From the NCBI GenBank assembly GCA_028291345.1, contig JAQGIF010000203.1:1-41813 (forward strand): a stretch of DNA of 41,813 nucleotides, written 5' to 3'. The stretch comes from Rhodospirillales bacterium (GTDB lineage Bacteria > Pseudomonadota > Alphaproteobacteria > BOG-932 > Roseiterribacteraceae). Numbering within the stretch: the first letter of the stretch is position 1; every line of letters starts with the position of its first letter. The notes beneath the pieces are model-generated. The model saw nothing but the letters and a program-made list of their open reading frames with translations. It had not been told where the DNA came from and ran no database searches. Position numbers and translations under genes: made by a program. Shown piece after piece: positions 26,440 to 38,671 of the stretch.

Positions 26440-26658
26440 TTACAGATGGGTGACGGAGAGCGTCCGCACTGCCTGTAAAACCAACGGATCGAGGCCTGCG
26501 CCGCCCTGATCTGCATACGCGGCGATGGTCCGGCGCATGCTCGGGTCCCAAAATTTCTTCAAATGGTTAGCAATTCCCGCGACCGGGTCTTGCCGGTGCT
26601 GGCTGGAAAAATATTTGCCGATCTGGTTGGCCATATAGATCAGCCGATCAGGCGACAC
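26440..26658 (-). CDS. fdsD: Formate dehydrogenase delta subunit
   Basis: This 72-residue protein ([16 protein letters not shown], then [15 protein letters not shown], ending [12 protein letters not shown]) matches the small delta subunit FdsD, which together with the FdhD/FdsC chaperone helps maturation and stability of NAD-dependent molybdenum formate dehydrogenases. The start is GTG at 26658, preceded by GGAGG six to seven bases upstream, and overlaps the fdhD stop by 11 bp. It is the last gene of the fds operon. It is short and would be easily missed, but operon position and sequence agree. Confidence 0.87.
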
Positions 26659-27496
26659 TGCGCACCTCCGCTTCCCTGATCCGGCCGGGATGGGTGAATA
26701 TCTCGAAATCCTCGCCGCGTGCGATGGCGATCAAGGTCATGCCGCAGGCTTCGGCGGTGCGGATGGCCAAGGCGGTCGGCGCCGATACGGCAACCAGGAC
26801 CGATGCACCCAGAATCGCAGTCTTCTGCACCATTTCGACTGATACTCTACTGGTCAGCAGTACGACGCCGCCGGATCCGACGATGGACCGGCGGGCAAGC
26901 GCGCCCGCAAGCTTATCCAGGGCGTTATGGCGGCCGACATCCTCGCGCAGCGCAACGATACCGTCGGCCGATGTCCAGAAGGCGGCGGCATGTACCGCGC
27001 GGGTCTCGCGGTTGAGCTTCTGCCCGGCCGGCATTGCCGCCATTGCGGCTGCGATCGCGTCGGGGGACAGCGTAAGGCCGGCATTAACATCCGGTGCGGG
27101 GCGCGCGGTCTCCTCCAGGCTTTCCATACCGCACAGCCCACATCCGGTCGGTCCAGCGAGATAGCGCCGGCGGTCGGAATAAGTCGATATCCGGTCCTCG
27201 CCGACCCACATACGCAGTTCGATGCCGATATCGCGCGTCACGACCTCGAGTTCGCGGACGTCCTCGGCTTTGTCGATCACCCGCTCGGCAAGGCTGAAGC
27301 CGATGGCGAAATCCTCGAGGTCAGCGGGCGTCGCCATCATGACGGCATGGGCGAGGCGGTTATAGGTGAAGGCGACCGGAACTTCCTCGGGCACCGCCCG
27401 CTCACCGGCGCGCAGGCGTCCGCCAGTCGACGAGATCTCGGGGACGCGCACCACAGGTTTGGGTGGCCGTCGCCCGGTCATCTGCCGCGCGGTCAT
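26648..27496 (-). CDS. fdhD: Formate dehydrogenase accessory sulfurtransferase FdhD (FdsC)
   Basis: FdhD/FdsC delivers sulfur to the molybdenum centre of formate dehydrogenase, and binds the bis-MGD cofactor. The 282-residue product has the catalytic C-x2-C pair at Cys119 and Cys122 (TGCGLCG). It also has the family motifs [18 protein letters not shown] and, later, [13 protein letters not shown] and [10 protein letters not shown]. It starts at an ATG overlapping the fdsA stop (ATGA) and overlaps fdsD downstream. Its place between fdsA and fdsD corresponds to fdsC of the classic fdsGBACD order. Confidence 0.95.
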
Positions 27497-30330
27497 TCGG
27501 CGGCTTCCGCAATATGGCGATTATGCTCGCTGAGCTCCTGATAGTGGCTCTGCCACTCGGTGGGCCCGTTGGACGGCGACACCTGTACCGCGGTGACCTT
27601 GTATTCCGGGCAGTTGGTCGCCCAGTCCGAGAATTCGGTCGTCACGACATTCGCTTGGGTCTCGGGATGGTGGAAGGTCGTGTAGACGACGCCCGGAGCG
27701 ACACGCTCGGTGATTTTGGCGCGGAGCGAGGTGCCGCCGGAGCGGCTCTGCAGCCGCACCCAGTCGCCCTCGCGGACGCCGCGTTGCTCGGCATCGTGCG
27801 GGTGGATTTCCAGCAGGTCCTCGGGGTGCCAGGCCACATTGCCGGTCCGCCGCGTCTGAGCGCCGACATTATAATGGCTGAGGATGCGTCCGGTGGTCAG
27901 CAGCAGCGGGAAGCGCGGACCGGTCCGCTCGTCGGTCGCCACATATTCGGTAAGGACGAAATGGCCCTTGCCGCGCACGAAATGATCGATATGCATGATC
28001 GGCGTACCTGTCGGTGCGGCATCGTTGCAGGGCCATTGAACCGAGCCCAAAGCATCCAAACTGTCATATGAAACGCCAGCAAAGGTCGGCGTCAGATGCG
28101 CGATCTCGTCCATGATTTCGGACGGATGGTTGTACTGCATCGGAAAACCCATGGCATTGGAGATCGCCATGGTGATCTCCCAGTCAGCCATGCCTGAGCG
28201 CGATGGCATGACCTTGCGCACCCTGCCGATGCGACGCTCGGCGTTGGTGAAGGTTCCATCCTTTTCGAGGAAAGTCGAACCCGGCAGGAAGACGTGGGCG
28301 AAATTCGCAGTCTCGTTCAGAAAGAGGTCCTGGACGACGACACATTCCATATTTTCCAGACCTGCCACGACATGCTGCGTGTCCGGATCGGACTGGGCGA
28401 TATCTTCGCCCTCGATATAGATTGCCTTGAAGCTTCCATCGACGGCCGCGTCCAGCATGTTGGGGATACGCAGGCCCGGCTCGGGGTCGAGCGGCACGTT
28501 CCAGAAAGCCTCGAACATCGTCCGCGTCGCGTCGTCAGAGATATGGCGATAGCCGGTGAATTCGTGTGGGAACGAGCCCATGTCGCAGGCTCCCTGGACA
28601 TTGTTCTGTCCGCGCAGCGGATTCACGCCGACGCCCCGCCGCCCGATATTACCGGTTGCCATCGCCAGATTGGCCATGGCCATCACCGTGGTCGTCCCTT
28701 GGCTGTGTTCGGTGACGCCCAGCCCGTAATAGATCGCGCTGTTTCCGCCGGTGGCGTAAAGGCGCGCGGCCGCACGGACGGTCTCGGCCGGCACGCCGGT
28801 GATCGTTGCCGTCGCCTCGGGGCTATGGTGTTGTTCGGCGACGAAAGCGGCCCAATCCTGAAACTCGTCCCAGTCGCAGCGTTCGCGGACGAAGGCCTCG
28901 TCGGCCAGGCCTTCGGTCACGATCACATGCGCCAGCGCGGTCAGCAGCGCGACATTGGTACCGGGCGTAAGCTGGAGATGATAGGACGCCTCAACATGCG
29001 GCATGCGCACCATGTCGATCCGGCGCGGATCGACAACGATCAGCCTGGCTCCGGAGCGCAACCGCTTTTTCATCTGCGAGGCGAAGACCGGATGCGCGTC
29101 GGTCGGGTTGGCGCCGATGATCAGAACCACATCCGCTTCGGTGACGGAATCGAAGTCCTGCGTTCCGGCCGAGGTGCCGAAGGTCTCCTTCAGCCCATAG
29201 CCGGTCGGTGAGTGACAGACCCGGGCACAGGTATCGACATTGTTGTTGCCGAACCCGGCGCGGATCAGCTTCTGAATCAGATAGGTCTCTTCATTGGTGC
29301 AGCGCGACGAGGTGATCCCGCCGACGGCGTTGCGGCCGTATTTCGCTTGGATGCGCTTGAATTCGGAGGCGACATAGGCGATCGCCTCGTCCCACGATAC
29401 CTCTCGCCATGGGTCGCTGATCTTTTCCCGGACCATCGGGTTCAAAATGCGGTCGCGGTGCGTGGTGTAACCCCAGGCGAAGCGGCCCTTGACACAGGAA
29501 TGGCCGTGATTTGCCTTGCCGTCCTTGTACGGCACCATGCGGACGACCTCGGTTCCCCGCATCTCTGCCTTGAAGCTGCAGCCGACGCCGCAATAGGCGC
29601 AGGTGGTGATGACCGAATGCTCCGGCTGGCCGATCTCGATGACCGACTTCTCGATCAAGGTCGCGGTCGGGCAGGCCTGGACGCAGGCGCCACACGAGAC
29701 GCATTCCGAGCCGATGAAGTCTTCATCCATGCCGGCCGAGACTTTTGAGTCGAAGCCGCGCCCGTCGATCGTAAGCGCGAACGTGCCCTGGACCTCCTCG
29801 CAGGCTCGCACGCAGCGCGAGCACACGATGCATTTGGATGGGTCGAAAGTGAAATAGGGATTGGATTCGTCCTTTGCGGCTTTGAGATGGTTGTCGCCGT
29901 CGAAACCATAACGTACTTCCCGCAGGCCGACTGCGCCGGCCATATCCTGTAATTCGCAATCGCCGTTGGCGGCGCAGGTCAGGCAATCCAGCGGATGGTC
30001 GGAGATATAGAGCTCCATGACGCCACGGCGAATCTGCTTCAGCCGCTCGGTCTGGGTCAGGACCTTGATCCCTTCGGCGACCGGCGTGGTGCATGATGCC
30101 GGTGTGCCATTGCGTCCCTCGATTTCGACCAGGCAGAGGCGGCAGGAGCCGAAGGCATTGACCGAATCGGTAGCGCAGAGCTTGGGCACCTGGATTCCGG
30201 CATCGACCGCCGCGCGCATCAGCGAGGTGCCTTCGGGGACTGTCACAGCGACGCCGTCGATGGTCAGCGTGACGTTCTTTTCGGCCTTCGAGGCGGGCGT
30301 GCCGTAATCGATTTCTTGGATCAAGGTCAT
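27493..30330 (-). CDS. fdsA: NAD-dependent formate dehydrogenase alpha (molybdenum) subunit
   Basis: FdsA oxidises formate to CO2 at a bis-MGD molybdenum centre. The 945-residue chain has, in order: a plant-type [2Fe-2S] domain (Cys52, 63, 66, 80); a His-Cys3 [4Fe-4S] site (His112, Cys116, 119, 125); two ferredoxin clusters (Cys167/170/173/177 and Cys210/213/216/220); a further [4Fe-4S] site at the catalytic domain (Cys244, 247, 251, 279); and the molybdenum ligand Cys372 followed by His373 in ARVCHSPTG. It uses Cys, not selenocysteine. All motifs are intact. The ATG at 30330 follows GGAGG by five bases, 10 bp after fdsB. It is soluble, with no Tat signal, so cytoplasmic. Confidence 0.97.
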
Positions 30331-30340
30331 TTGCGCCTCC

Positions 30341-31894
30341 TCACGCGGCTGCCAATGGCACGCGCGCTACGAAATCTTCCGGGAAGAAGCGCAGGGCGCT
30401 CATCACTGGATATGGGGTGAAGCCGCCGAGGGCGCAAAGCGATCCGAATTTGAGGGTCTGGCATAGATCTTCGATTAGATCGATGCCGGCAGCCACGCCT
30501 TGACCTCGCGCGATACGGTCGAGTACTTCGACCCCGCGGGTCGAGCCGATCCGGCAGGGCGTGCATTTCCCACAGGATTCGATCGAACAGAACTCCATGG
30601 CGAAACGCGCCTGCTTCAGCATATCCACCGTGTCGTCGAAGACCACGACTCCGCCATGGCCGATCAGCCCATCGCGAGCTGCGAAGGCCTCATAGTCAAA
30701 CGGCGTATCGAACAGATCGCGCGGGAAGTAAGCGCCAAGCGGGCCGCCGACCTGCGCCGCGCGCACCGGGCGTCCGCTGGCGGTTCCGCCGCCGATGTCA
30801 TCGACCAGCTCACCCAGCGTGACGCCGAACGCGGTCTCGAACAATCCGCTACGGCGGATATTGCCCGCCAGCTGGATCGGCATCGTGCCGCGCGACCGGC
30901 CCATTCCGAAGTCGCGATAGTAGGCTGCGCCTTCGGCGAGAATGGTCGGCACTGCTGCAAGCGACAGTACGTTGTTGATGACCGTCGGCTTACCGAATAG
31001 TCCCTGATGGGCAGGCAATGGCGGTTTGGCGCGAACCTGGCCGCGTTTGCCCTCGAGGCTTTCAAGCAGCGAGGTTTCTTCGCCGCAGACATAGGCGCCG
31101 GCGCCGACCTGCACCTGAATATCGAAGCCGTAGCTCGAACCTGAGACATGCGCGCCCAAATAGCCCGAGGACCGCGCAACCGCGATTGCCGCCTCCATCG
31201 CCGCCACCGCCGCGGGATATTCAGAACGGATATAGATGGTGCCTTCCGTCGCCCCGGTCGCGATTCCGGCGATGGTCATACCCTCGATCAGGATGAAGGG
31301 GTCGCCCTCCATGATCATACGGTCGGCGAACGTGCCGGAATCGCCTTCGTCGGCATTGCAGACGATATATTTCTGTGGCCCGGGCGTATCGAGCACGGTC
31401 TTCCATTTAATGCCGGTCGGAAAACCGGCGCCGCCACGGCCGCGCAGGCCGGACTGGGTTACTGCCTCGACGATTGCGGCTGGCTGCAGCGCTAAAGCCT
31501 GTTCCAATCCCCGGTAGCCGCCATGGGTGCGGTAATCGTCGAGTGACAGGGGATCGACAATGCCGCACCGGGCGAAGGTGAGCCGGTTTTGGCGTTTCAG
31601 GAACGGAATGTCCTCCGGCCTCCCCAGACGCAGCGTGTGGGAACCGCCGTTCAAGAAATCGGAATTCAGCAAGTCATCGAGCTCATCAGCCGAGACAGGG
31701 CCATAAGCGATCCGCCCTTCGGCGGTTTCGACCTCGACCATCGGTTCCAGCCAATACAGGCCACGTGAGCCGGTGCGTACGATCTGCACCGGCAGGCCGC
31801 GCTCGGCACACGCCTGGCCCAGCATCTGGGCCACCTCATCGGCGCCGACGGCGACGGCGGCTGAATCCCTTGGGATATAGATTTTGGTGGTCAT
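30341..31894 (-). CDS. fdsB: NAD-dependent formate dehydrogenase beta (FMN/NAD-binding) subunit
   Basis: FdsB takes electrons from FdsA and reduces NAD+. The 517-residue protein resembles NuoF of complex I, with an N-terminal thioredoxin-like region fused in front. The FMN/NADH-binding loop is RGRGGAGFPTGIKWKT and VCNADEGDSGTFADR follows. The C-terminal [4Fe-4S] cluster ligands are in ESCGKCTPCRIGS, with a final Cys in GSLCALGGFTPYP. The start overlaps the fdsG stop as ATGA. The gene sits between fdsG and fdsA as in other fds operons. Confidence 0.96.
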   Translation of the reverse strand: MTTKIYIPRDSAAVAVGADEVAQMLGQACAERGLPVQIVRTGSRGLYWLEPMVEVETAEGRIAYGPVSADELDDLLNSDFLNGGSHTLRLGRPEDIPFLKRQNRLTFARCGIVDPLSLDDYRTHGGYRGLEQALALQPAAIVEAVTQSGLRGRGGAGFPTGIKWKTVLDTPGPQKYIVCNADEGDSGTFADRMIMEGDPFILIEGMTIAGIATGATEGTIYIRSEYPAAVAAMEAAIAVARSSGYLGAHVSGSSYGFDIQVQVGAGAYVCGEETSLLESLEGKRGQVRAKPPLPAHQGLFGKPTVINNVLSLAAVPTILAEGAAYYRDFGMGRSRGTMPIQLAGNIRRSGLFETAFGVTLGELVDDIGGGTASGRPVRAAQVGGPLGAYFPRDLFDTPFDYEAFAARDGLIGHGGVVVFDDTVDMLKQARFAMEFCSIESCGKCTPCRIGSTRGVEVLDRIARGQGVAAGIDLIEDLCQTLKFGSLCALGGFTPYPVMSALRFFPEDFVARVPLAAA

Positions 31895-34391: not shown

Positions 34392-34820
34392 ATGACCCGC
34401 ATTACCCTCGAAAATGCCAACAGCATCATCGCCGCCGCCTTTTCCAAGGGGAATGCGCTCGGCCTGAAGCCGCTCAGCGTTTCGGTGCTCGACGCCGGCG
34501 GTCACATGATCGCATTTCAGCGGCAGGACGGCGCATCGACCCTGCGACCGCAGATCGCCACAGCGAAGGCATCCGGGGCGCTGGCGCTCGGCGTCTCGTC
34601 GCGCAAGATCGGCGAGATGGCCGCGGAACGCCCGACATTCGTAACCTCGCTCGGGACCATCGCCCCTCACGGAGTCGTGCCGGCAGCCGGCGGCGTGATC
34701 GTGGTCGGTGCGGACGGCGGGCCGATCGGCGCGGTCGGCGTCACCGGCGATCTGTCCGACAATGACGAAATTTGTGCGCTCGCCGGCATCGCCGCGGCTG
34801 GCCTGACGGCGCAGGGTTAA
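34392..34820 (+). CDS. GlcG/HbpS-like heme-binding family protein
   Basis: The 142-residue protein belongs to the GlcG/HbpS (DUF336) family: an N-terminal helix rich in Ala (IIAAAFSKGNALGL), the strand pair SVSVLDAGGHMIAFQR and the Gly-rich end GGVIVVGADGGPIGAVGVTG. In E. coli glcG lies just before glcB in the glycolate operon, and the same arrangement is seen here, 12 bp from malate synthase G. The molecular role of GlcG is not settled; related proteins bind heme. It is cytoplasmic, with no signal peptide. The upstream gap holds the promoter shared with the LysR gene. Confidence 0.85.
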   Translation: MTRITLENANSIIAAAFSKGNALGLKPLSVSVLDAGGHMIAFQRQDGASTLRPQIATAKASGALALGVSSRKIGEMAAERPTFVTSLGTIAPHGVVPAAGGVIVVGADGGPIGAVGVTGDLSDNDEICALAGIAAAGLTAQG

Positions 34821-34832
34821 GGAAAAACGAAG

Positions 34833-36977
34833 ATGACGAAGATGATTGATAAAGCCGGCCTGCGGGTCGCGGAGGCGCTGGTTCGTTTCCTGGAAGACCG
34901 GGCGCTTCCCGGCACCGGCATCGCGCCGGATGCGTTCTGGCGCGGCGTCGCTGATATCTTCAACCGCCTTACGCCGGAGAATAGGGGGCTGCTGGCGCAT
35001 CGTGAGGCGATTCAGGCGACCATCGATGCCTGGCATATCATGCATCGCGGCCAGGCCATCGATGGGGCGGAATACCAGGCCTTTCTGCGGTCGATCGGTT
35101 ATCTGGTGGGCGAGCCCGTACCCTTTACCGTCGCGCCCGAGAATGTCGATGACGAAGTCGCCCGGATGGCTGGGCCGCAGCTGGTCGTGCCGGTGCTCAA
35201 TGCTCGTTTCCTGCTCAACGCGGCCAATGCCCGCTGGGGCAGCCTGTATGATGCTTTCTACGGCACCGATGTCATTCCGCAGGAGGGCAACCCCGCGAAG
35301 GGATACGACCCGACGCGCGGGTCGCTTGTGATCGCCAAGGCAAAGAATTTCCTAGATCAGGTCGCGCCGCTCGCCGGCGGCAAGCATGACTCGGTGACCG
35401 GCTATTCCGTCGAAGGCGGGGCCTTGCGGCCCGCGCTGGCCGATCCATCGGCTTTCGTTGGCTATAATGGCGACTCGGCTGCGCCGTCCGCCATTCTGCT
35501 CAAGCATAACGGGCTGCATGTCGAACTCGTGATCGATCGCGCCCATCCGATCGGCCGCGACGATCCCGCCGGCCTATCGGACATCATCCTGGAAGCGGCG
35601 CTGACCACCATCGTCGATCTTGAGGATTCGGTCGCTGCGGTCGACGCCGACGACAAGGTCGAGGCCTATGCGAACTGGCTAGGACTGATGAAAGGCGACC
35701 TCGAAGCAAGTTTCGAGAAGGGCGGCAAGTCCATCACCCGCGCGCTGGAGCCCGACCGCACCTATGTCGCGCCGGGCGGTGGCGCGCTGACCCTGCCTGG
35801 CCGTAGCCTGCTGTTCGTCCGCAATGTCGGCCATCTGATGACCACGCCCGCCATCCTGCTGGGCGATGGCAGCGAGGCGCCCGAGGGCATACTCGACGGC
35901 ATCGTCACCAGCTTGATCGCGATTCACGATCTGGAGGGGCAGGGAAGGTTCCGTAACAGCCGCGCTGGGTCGATCTATATCGTGAAACCCAAGATGCATG
36001 GACCGGATGAGGCCGCCTTCGCCGACCGGCTGTTCGACGCGATCGAGGACCTGCTGGGCCTCAGCCGCCACACGATCAAGATCGGCGTGATGGATGAGGA
36101 GCGGCGGACCTCTGCCAATCTCGCGGCCTGCATTCATGCCGTGAAGGATCGTATCGTCTTCATCAATACCGGGTTCCTGGATCGCACCGGCGACGAGATA
36201 CACACCTCGATGCAGGCCGGCGGGATGGTGCGCAAAGGCGAGATGAAAGCATCAGACTGGATCAAGACCTACGAGGACCGCAACGTCCAGATCGGGCTGG
36301 CCTGCGGCCTGTCCGGCAAGGCGCAGATCGGCAAAGGCATGTGGGCGGCCCCCGATCGCATGGCGGAGATGCTGGAGGTGAAAATCGGCCACCCGAAATC
36401 GGGCGCCAACACCGCCTGGGTGCCGAGCCCGACCGCCGCGACCCTTCACGCCACCCATTACCATGCGGTGGATGTGTTCGCACGGCAGCGCGAACTGGCC
36501 GGCCAGCCAACGCCGGGGCTGGACAAGCTACTGACGATACCTCTCGCCTCCGGCCAGAATTGGTCGGAACAGGAAATCCGCGAGGAGCTGGACAATAACG
36601 CCCAGGGTATATTGGGTTACGTCGTGCGCTGGATCGATCAGGGCGTCGGCTGCTCGAAGGTGCCCGATATCCATGATATCGGCCTGATGGAGGACCGCGC
36701 GACGTTGCGCATCTCATCCCAGCATATCGCCAACTGGTTGCTGCACGGCGTGTGCACCGCGGCGGAGGTGGATGCGGCGTTGCTGCGCATGGCCGCCAAG
36801 GTGGACGGGCAGAATGCGGGCGACCCGCTCTATCAGCCGATGGCTCCCAATAGTGGGGCAAGCCTCGCCTTCGAGGCGGCGCGTGCACTGATCTTCAAGG
36901 GGGCCGAGCAGCCCAACGGCTATACCGAGCCGTTGCTGCACGGGTACCGCAGGCGGAAGAAGGCAGAGGCGGCCTGA
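34833..36977 (+). CDS. glcB: Malate synthase G
   Basis: Malate synthase G condenses glyoxylate with acetyl-CoA to malate, feeding C2 carbon into the TCA cycle. The 714-residue product is close to the E. coli length (723). It contains [40 protein letters not shown] (with the catalytic Asp/Glu region), [22 protein letters not shown] and the ending [11 protein letters not shown]. The ATG follows GGAAAAACGAAG. It is the second gene of a glcG-like/glcB pair. Isocitrate lyase and the glycolate oxidase genes glcDEF are not in the window. Confidence 0.96.
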
Positions 36978-37487
36978 CGGTTGAATTTTTAGCTATACTT
37001 GAGGAAATGGCGATGGGGTGCCTCCGTTCCGTGTCGGATGAAAAGCCGATCGAACGCTAGCGGACCCGATCCTCCTAGGACCAGGGCGACAAGCCCGCGA
37101 TGTGGAGGAGATCCGTCTCGCATGCTGGCTGTCCGAAAACGGGTGCCGTCAGTGGCCCATCCCTTGTAATTTGATCGAGCTGAAACTGTCCGGAAGGTGA
37201 ACGGTGAAGATGCGACAAGCAGAACGATAAAGCATCGGAACGCTCGCAAGCGGGATGAACCCGCCCACAAGGACAGCGCCCGAGCTGGGACGAGATCATC
37301 CCGTCGATCAATTTGAAGTGGTACGGTGGCTAGCGCCGGCGCCGCGCTCGTAACCACGAAGCTTTGCGCGAGAGACGAGATGCGCCGGTGTGAGGCCGCC
37401 GGCCGACACTACCGCGACGGGTGAGGCAGCGGGAATAGTCTCGGCCATAGGATCAAAAAGGCTCTTGGTGACCGCGCGACGCCCGCA
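36978..37487. other. 510-bp stretch with no convincing gene
   Basis: Several frames are open by chance on the minus strand (36989-37357 and 37075-37311), but none has a ribosome-binding site before its start, and the frames compete. A hairpin GCGGG-ATGAA-CCCGC lies at 37250-37264. The segment separates core metabolism from the accessory right end and may be decayed or regulatory DNA. I recognise no family. Confidence 0.4.
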
Positions 37488-37865
37488 TTACCTAACAGCG
37501 CCTAGCGCTACCGACTGCGAAGGTTTCTGCGATTGGAGGGGCGTGGCGGCTCTGCCGGCGGTTGCAGAGTGGCCGGTCGACAGGCGCGCGATGAAGTCAC
37601 GATCTGGATGGTCGTCGACCACGACGGTGCCCGACCGCGTCAGCGAGAAGGACGGGTTCTCAAACCGTGCAAGGAAATCCCGCGCGCCGTCGCTCCTTAA
37701 GGTGGTGGTGCCGGGCTGCGCTGACAAAATATTGGGAGTCTCGATCCGCGCGATCCAGGCTTGGGCCGGGTTCTCGGAGGCGGGATCCGCATAGACGCTG
37801 GCGGGAGCGGCGATTACGATCAGGGCGGTTGCGAGAAGGCCGGGGAAAATAGTTTTGCGTGCCAT
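37488..37865 (-). CDS. Small secreted protein with three 27-residue repeats, function unknown
   Basis: The 125-residue protein has a signal peptide (hydrophobic 8-22, cleavage near VYA-DP at 26/27). The mature part consists of three units with a period of exactly 27 residues, anchored by Trp37, Phe64 and Phe91, each followed by [IL]AR[IFL]. Units 1 and 2 share E-[TN]-P at the same offset and units 1 to 2 end with GT[TV][TV][LV]. A TTGGAG-type ribosome-binding site (GGAG) precedes the ATG by nine bases. It is divergent from a TetR gene and downstream of two matching operators. No known family is recognised. Confidence 0.7.
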   Translation of the reverse strand: MARKTIFPGLLATALIVIAAPASVYADPASENPAQAWIARIETPNILSAQPGTTTLRSDGARDFLARFENPSFSLTRSGTVVVDDHPDRDFIARLSTGHSATAGRAATPLQSQKPSQSVALGAVR

Positions 37866-37916
37866 GAGTTATCTCCAATGGGATGAACCGGTCGCGCTGC
37901 GCGAAAGTGCGTTTTC

Positions 37917-37952
37917 ATGACGACCGTCATGAATAGAAATGACGATCGTCAT
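37917..37952. promoter_or_regulatory. Paired TetR operators, centres 22 bp apart
   Basis: ATGACGACCGTCAT (37917-37930) and the perfect palindrome ATGACGATCGTCAT (37939-37952) lie 52 and 74 bp upstream of the secreted-protein start. The centres are 22 bp apart, about two DNA turns, so two repressor dimers would sit on one face. The same sequence recurs at 38047-38060. Confidence 0.7.
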
Positions 37953-38046: not shown

Positions 38047-38060
38047 CTGACGACCGTCAT
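38047..38060. promoter_or_regulatory. Third copy of the TetR operator, in front of the TetR gene
   Basis: CTGACGACCGTCAT matches the two upstream operators at all but one base and ends 14 bp before the TetR start, where bound repressor would block its own transcription. Autoregulation is inferred. Confidence 0.65.
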
Positions 38061-38074
38061 GAAAGAGCGGAAGC

Positions 38075-38671
38075 ATGCGACTTACCAAGGCCCAGCGGGC
38101 CGAAAATCACGATCGGATTGTGCGCGTTGCAGCCAAGCTTTTCCGTGAGAAGGGCGTGGACGGGGTAGGGATCGACGAGATCATGGTCGAGGCCTCCCTG
38201 ACTCATGGCGCATTCTATGGGCACTTCCCGTCGAAGACTGCGTTGATTGGCGAAGCAAGCGCTTACGCCATGGACGATTCAGGCTTGACGCGACTCGAAG
38301 ATGATACCCCGCCCGGCACACGAAAGAGCTTTCCCGAGCTTGCAAGGCGATATCTTTCGGTGGAGCATCGCGACGATCCCGGGCGAGGGTGTGCCATCGC
38401 GGCTCTGGCCGTCGATATCGGCCGCCAGGACGACGCTATGCAGGCGCTATTCGCCCAGAATCTTGAAGTGAGGTTAGGGGAGCTCGCCGAACGGTTGCCG
38501 GGCGACCGCGATGCGGCGCGCCACGACGCCATGCTGAAATATGCAACGATGGTCGGCGCTCTGGTGATGGCTCGCAGCGCCGGCAAGGGTGCGCTGTCGG
38601 AAGAAGTGCTCGACGTCGTTCGCGAGCGGCTTGAGGCCGAGCAGGCCGCAACAGAATCCGCGGTGGCCTGA
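38075..38671 (+). CDS. TetR/AcrR-family transcriptional regulator
   Basis: The 198-residue protein opens with a TetR DNA-binding domain (about residues 8-55). This contains the IVRVAAKLFREKGVDGVGIDEIM helices and the recognition segment SLTHGAFYGHFPSK. An all-helical ligand domain follows (about 60-185), which is Ala- and Leu-rich. The effector is unknown. Three copies of one palindrome in its divergent promoter region suggest autoregulation plus control of the repeat-bearing secreted protein. The molybdopterin hydroxylase gene downstream is on the same strand, 295 bp away, and could also be a target. Confidence 0.9.
   Translation: MRLTKAQRAENHDRIVRVAAKLFREKGVDGVGIDEIMVEASLTHGAFYGHFPSKTALIGEASAYAMDDSGLTRLEDDTPPGTRKSFPELARRYLSVEHRDDPGRGCAIAALAVDIGRQDDAMQALFAQNLEVRLGELAERLPGDRDAARHDAMLKYATMVGALVMARSAGKGALSEEVLDVVRERLEAEQAATESAVA

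Follow-up and report, generated by a model that had tools for sequence, protein, structure and literature searches.

A predicted exported protein of 27-residue units and its putative TetR-family repressor in a Rhodospirillales bacterium

A short gene faces a TetR-family regulator gene in the window, by which we mean the whole stretch of 41,813 nucleotides that was analysed from a Rhodospirillales bacterium. What kind of protein does this gene encode, what controls it, and what could the protein do? A preliminary description, made from the letters alone, had proposed a secreted protein of three exact 27-residue repeats under TetR control. The features of the locus are collected in Table 1. The frame is a real ORF of 125 amino acids, with an ATG start and with the stop codon included in its coordinates. 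A second ORF of 134 codons runs antisense to it (window 37390-37794, plus strand), in our reading a mere by-product of coding DNA rich in GC.

Table 1. Features of the repeat gene, the divergent tetR and the region between them (window coordinates)
Feature	Position	Strand	Basis
CDS of the 27-residue-repeat protein, predicted to be exported	37488..37865	-	ORF list; homologue L035:1129-1428
Predicted signal peptide, residues 1-26, predicted cleavage VYA/DPA	37788..37865	-	Sequence inspection; homologue has 26 residues with an AHA/D end
Repeat unit 1, residues 37-63 (WIARIETPNILSAQPGTTTLRSDGARD)	37677..37757	-	Lag-27 self-alignment
Repeat unit 2, residues 64-90 (FLARFENPSFSLTRSGTVVVDDHPDRD)	37596..37676	-	Lag-27 self-alignment
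Closing part (unit 3), residues 91-100 (FIARLSTGHS)	37566..37595	-	Lag-27 self-alignment; homologue stops at this point
C-terminal tail, residues 101-125	37491..37565	-	Missing from homologue L035:1129-1428
Shine-Dalgarno-like GGAGA, 6 nt 5' of the ATG	37872..37876	-	Sequence; AGGAGG at a like place in the homologue
Operator-like palindrome O1, ATGACGACCGTCAT	37917..37930		Position conserved in L035
Operator-like palindrome O2, ATGACGATCGTCAT, 22 bp from O1	37939..37952		Conserved in L035
Operator-like palindrome O3, CTGACGACCGTCAT, adjoining the tetR start (putative autoregulation)	38047..38060		Conserved in L035
TetR-family repressor, 198 aa, sole cysteine Cys106 (codon 38390-38392)	38075..38671	+	Pfam TetR_N; 75-78% identical to that of L035

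The residues W37, F64 and F91 are spaced exactly 27 apart, and directly after each comes [IL]AR (WIAR, FLAR and FIAR), as had been stated. Units 1 and 2 also have in common E-x-P (ETP at 42-44, ENP at 69-71) and GT followed by an aliphatic stretch (GTTTL at 52-56, GTVVV at 79-83). Repeat detection, which the preliminary description had proposed as a check, gave a significant period. The self-alignment of the protein scored 57 at lag 27, whereas shuffled sequences averaged 9.4, and over all lags from 10 to 60 none of 5000 shuffles matched this score. Lag 54, that is, twice 27, came second, and the repeat score was the highest among the 176 ORFs of the window. The 27-residue period is not a product of chance. 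The number of repeats has to be revised: the period is exact and two units are full, and unit 3 keeps only about 10 residues, its helical start. Between units 1 and 2, 8 of the 27 residues are identical (counted by eye). Because the homologue described below ends at the helix of unit 3, the architecture is best read as two units plus a closing helix.

The homologue was reached through the divergent TetR gene. Among 80 loci, one TetR (locus L035, contig JAQGID010000016.1 of the MAG Rhodospirillales bacterium RYN_450) was 78% identical to that of the window, and all others were below 45%. A 99-residue ORF (L035:1129-1428) faces this regulator. It has a 26-residue signal peptide (by inspection), W36, F63 and F90, two units and the closing FVARLSAAHS; in contrast to the window protein, it has no C-terminal tail, and its mature form would have 73 residues. 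The two proteins are 35% identical, and BLASTP aligned 69 residues without a gap (E = 4e-15 for this pair). The lag-27 score of the homologue was 143, which none of 5000 shuffles reached. The W/F..R anchor thus occurs three times at a spacing of 27 in each protein. The preliminary description had tied its reading to the existence of a homologue with the 27-residue period; one was found (n = 1), and it keeps the period, together with the signal peptide, the orthologous divergent TetR gene and the operator-like palindromes. The window genome and RYN_450 appear to belong to different orders, since their sets of order genomes differ (5 for the window, 43 for RYN_450).

Units 1 and 2 of the homologue form two 81-nt direct repeats (L035:1144-1305) with 88% identical DNA, a further difference from the window protein. 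They differ by 12 codon changes, six silent and six replacing, and five of the six replacing changes fall in the helix start. These two units look recently duplicated or homogenised. The 27-residue period is thus characteristic of the family, and its units seem to undergo duplication or homogenisation. The pattern of silent and replacing changes also bears on whether the gene is functional at all. Malate synthase and tetR are separated by a gap of 1 kb, and an ORF there could be spurious or in decay. Such a reading would be consistent with the failure to find further members in about 1,220 additional genomes, with the unconserved C-terminal tail and with the overlapping antisense ORF. The second genome, however, has a homologue in an ungapped frame with a matching signal peptide, Shine-Dalgarno sequence and operator-like palindromes, and half of the codon changes between its units are silent. 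We see only a very slight chance that the ORF is non-functional.

The protein had been described as belonging to no familiar family, which agrees with our searches of Pfam, NCBIfam, PHROGs and the PDB, where no relative was found. Pfam and PHROGs had no match above cut-off for either homologue, and NCBIfam had none for the window protein. Direct searches with the protein found no relative in 84,980 species genomes or in plasmids and no paralogue in its own genome, viral contigs and phages yielded no member, and the literature that was searched had no paper on a 27-residue repeat. A match in a Sphingomonas plasmid was weak and without the repeat, and it was rejected. The first class-wide matches (E 0.001-0.1) were attributed to chance: a repeated [FW][ILV]A[RK] was present in no short ORF of the examined loci except that of the window. 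The profile search covered 385 genomes of the class, 43 of the order and two further sets of 397 and 401 (about 1,220). It returned only the two known members, whose match follows from the way the profile was built; the remaining matches were weak (E 8.6e-5 or worse), with stops in most. The effector diverges fast (35% identity, beside 75-78% for the regulator), so these searches may have overlooked distant members. The repeat protein represents a new orphan family, with a regulatory layout of a known kind, and the pair of tetR and repeat gene looks like a very rare, fast-changing stress-inducible module.

The divergent gene encodes a protein with an N-terminal TetR helix-turn-helix (PF00440, 1.5e-12, residues 15-60), and in both genomes it is divergent from the repeat gene. 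Three ATGACGNNCGTCAT-type palindromes lie in the 209 bp between the two genes of the window, at places conserved in both genomes. Only two perfect ATGACGNNCGTCAT copies exist in the whole 5.6-Mb genome, and both are between tetR and the repeat gene. The palindromes of L035 have aligned positions and similar flanks, with small changes in each, and the remaining spacer has diverged. In the window the pair is flanked by malate synthase G and by a molybdopterin dehydrogenase (Pfam), in L035 by an SDR and an MBL/ferredoxin-like ORF (the latter by eye). Because these outer flanks differ between the genomes, the two-gene pair is the conserved unit. The proposal of TetR control was strengthened by the divergent gene, the three operator-like palindromes kept in a second genome and the lack of a perfect copy elsewhere. 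Since the palindromes are at conserved places and the sole two perfect genomic copies are here, regulation of the repeat gene by the divergent TetR, taken alone, is highly probable.

Twelve one-mismatch operators elsewhere in the genome were inspected, and 11 of them are inside ORFs of at least 100 codons, so no wider regulon is claimed. No consensus sigma-70 promoter was found. None of the other TetR copies of this genome and its relatives faces a repeat ORF. A second TetR of the same subfamily in this genome (L130, G000:C71; 34% identical) faces an ORF that resembles an efflux membrane-fusion protein by eye. The malate synthase G gene is directly preceded by a small GlcG/HbpS-like ORF (by eye; window 34392-36977, plus strand), a pair of the glycolate-use type. 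Farther away, window 26651-31894 (minus strand) holds FdhD, an NADH-dehydrogenase-G/molybdopterin oxidoreductase and a Nuo51-type subunit, which make up an NAD-linked formate dehydrogenase cluster (Pfam). Rfam found no RNA in the window.

The signal peptide that had been noted is supported by the comparison: by inspection, both homologues have 26 residues with an A-x-A end, from which we infer export. The mature protein has no cysteine, anchor or recognised catalytic motif, and a binding rather than enzymatic role in the periplasm may be assumed. Release as an offensive or signalling product (bacteriocin-like, antimicrobial or a multi-copy peptide precursor) would suit a small, exported, repetitive and fast-evolving protein. 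We consider this very improbable: the mature part has no cysteine, there are no double-Gly or dibasic sites between the units, inspection found no transporter, peptidase, modification or immunity gene adjoining in either genome, and phage and NCBIfam peptide families gave no matches. A surface- or matrix-binding protein, adhesin-like or polymer-binding, that either leaves the cell through the outer membrane or is anchored in it is improbable as well. Multivalent binding is a frequent property of repeats, and both homologues space their units exactly, but the protein has little more than two units, it lacks an anchor and any signal for sorting or type I secretion, and it matches no known carbohydrate-binding family. 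The toxin, antimicrobial and surface-binding guesses of the preliminary description thus found no backing: neither genes nor motifs for processing, immunity, export or anchoring were seen.

Structure prediction, also suggested earlier, gave one helix per unit at low confidence. AlphaFold2 (AF2) placed helices at 33-42, 60-69 and 87-98 of the window protein; in the homologue it placed helices at 32-41, 59-68 and 86-97 and strands at 52-55 and 78-81. Both models rest on two-sequence alignments and are weak (pLDDT 49 and 58), but they agree on the position of a single helix per unit; the better model adds one strand per unit. The predicted helices have a moderate hydrophobic moment. Foldseek with the two low-confidence models matched no solved structure.

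What signal could release the repressor? Cys106 is the sole cysteine of the window TetR and was invariant in 81 of 81 homologues. By its numbering, it may stand at the position of Cys106 of NemR. Lys171 is common to the TetR proteins of the window and L035, and most other homologues have Asp. Many of the TetR homologues are divergent from SDR genes, and two that were checked are divergent from Old Yellow Enzyme genes. The earlier guess of a stress-induced protein gains indirect support from this subfamily, with its invariant lone cysteine and its relatives beside SDR and Old Yellow Enzyme genes. NemR, also a TetR protein, represses nemA (N-ethylmaleimide reductase) and gloA, and it responds to reactive chlorine species through a Cys106-Lys175 bond (PMC7464077). 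No NemR model was among the NCBIfam and Pfam matches of the window TetR, and other TetR equivalogs were far below cut-off (NCBIfam). Sensing of electrophiles or oxidants by the window TetR is a lead that comes from this analogy, and the conserved Cys106 may be structural. In several TetR relatives in Burkholderiales and Rhizobiales (loci L045-L114), palindromes like ATGATNNNNATCAT are retained, and the divergent gene encodes an SDR or an Old Yellow Enzyme; they represent a wide and apparently under-described NemR-like regulon.

Most TetR proteins are ligand-gated. The same module could accordingly answer to one particular small compound (an aromatic, a quinone, a drug or a fatty-acid-like ligand) bound in the usual pocket of TetR, and the repeat protein would bind the compound or a breakdown partner in the periplasm. 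A molybdopterin dehydrogenase of the aldehyde/isoquinoline type lies 3' of tetR in the window and might share the signal, and the TetR has weak similarity to Pfam TetR_C_13_2. In L035, however, the dehydrogenase is not beside the pair; no operator precedes the dehydrogenase, and the invariance of Cys106 also argues against a conventional ligand. We regard the small-molecule signal as possible but unlikely.

In this study, the reading we prefer, with a probability of about 45%, is a periplasmic repeat protein that a NemR-like TetR makes inducible by electrophiles or oxidants. The ORF, its period, the homologue, the divergent arrangement and the operator-like sites can be read from the DNA of the two loci. 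The gene product would be a small exported protein of 27-residue units, most likely periplasmic. In each unit, a short amphipathic helix (like [DN]P-x-x-x-[WF]-[ILV]-x-R-[LIF]) would be joined to a short strand by a linker that contains Pro, and the protein would be closed by a third helix. The repeat gene would be the main target of the divergent TetR, a member of a NemR-like set with one invariant cysteine, which on the three palindromes would repress both tetR and the repeat gene. A reactive electrophile or oxidant would modify Cys106 and take the repressor off the operators. The repeat protein would then be exported and would bind or shield something in the envelope, and such a periplasmic role is the simplest reading. 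The weak steps of this explanation are the oxidant or electrophile signal and the role in the envelope. A bolder version, which we hold to be rather doubtful, proposes an undescribed alpha/beta tandem-repeat fold in the periplasm, governed by a one-cysteine TetR switch, with a sacrificial or protein-shielding function and evolving by unit duplication and homogenisation.

Known systems resemble this arrangement in part. NemR-nemA-gloA of E. coli also has a TetR repressor with a cysteine numbered 106, and relatives of the window TetR adjoin Old Yellow Enzyme (NemA-type) genes. The predicted target in the window, in contrast, is a small exported repeat protein and not a reductase, NemR has six cysteines whereas the window TetR has one, and the best PDB relative of the latter is 2fd5. 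RclB is a small periplasmic protein of an oxidant regulon (RclR), and its role is unclear (PMC12096828). Small periplasmic stress proteins of the RclB/DUF1471 type are likewise without cysteine and induced by an oxidant sensor; for the window protein, such induction and the periplasmic location are predictions. DUF1471 proteins, however, are non-repeat and enterobacterial, the window protein has no Pfam match, and the regulator of the RclR regulon is AraC-type. RcrR-rcrA-rcrB of UPEC has a local redox-sensing repressor of adjacent stress genes (PMC9600549), as is predicted for the window TetR; there, however, the genes are in one operon with the regulator, and Cys54 and Cys95 of RcrR are both missing from the window TetR.

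If the proposed reading is true, a secreted helix-strand repeat protein would be a new output of a regulator class known for cytoplasmic detoxifying enzymes. The protein would have a very small repeat fold, with a 27-residue unit exact enough to be solved by itself. The conserved regulator beside a fast-changing effector would also offer a compact case of new secreted proteins arising beside an old switch.
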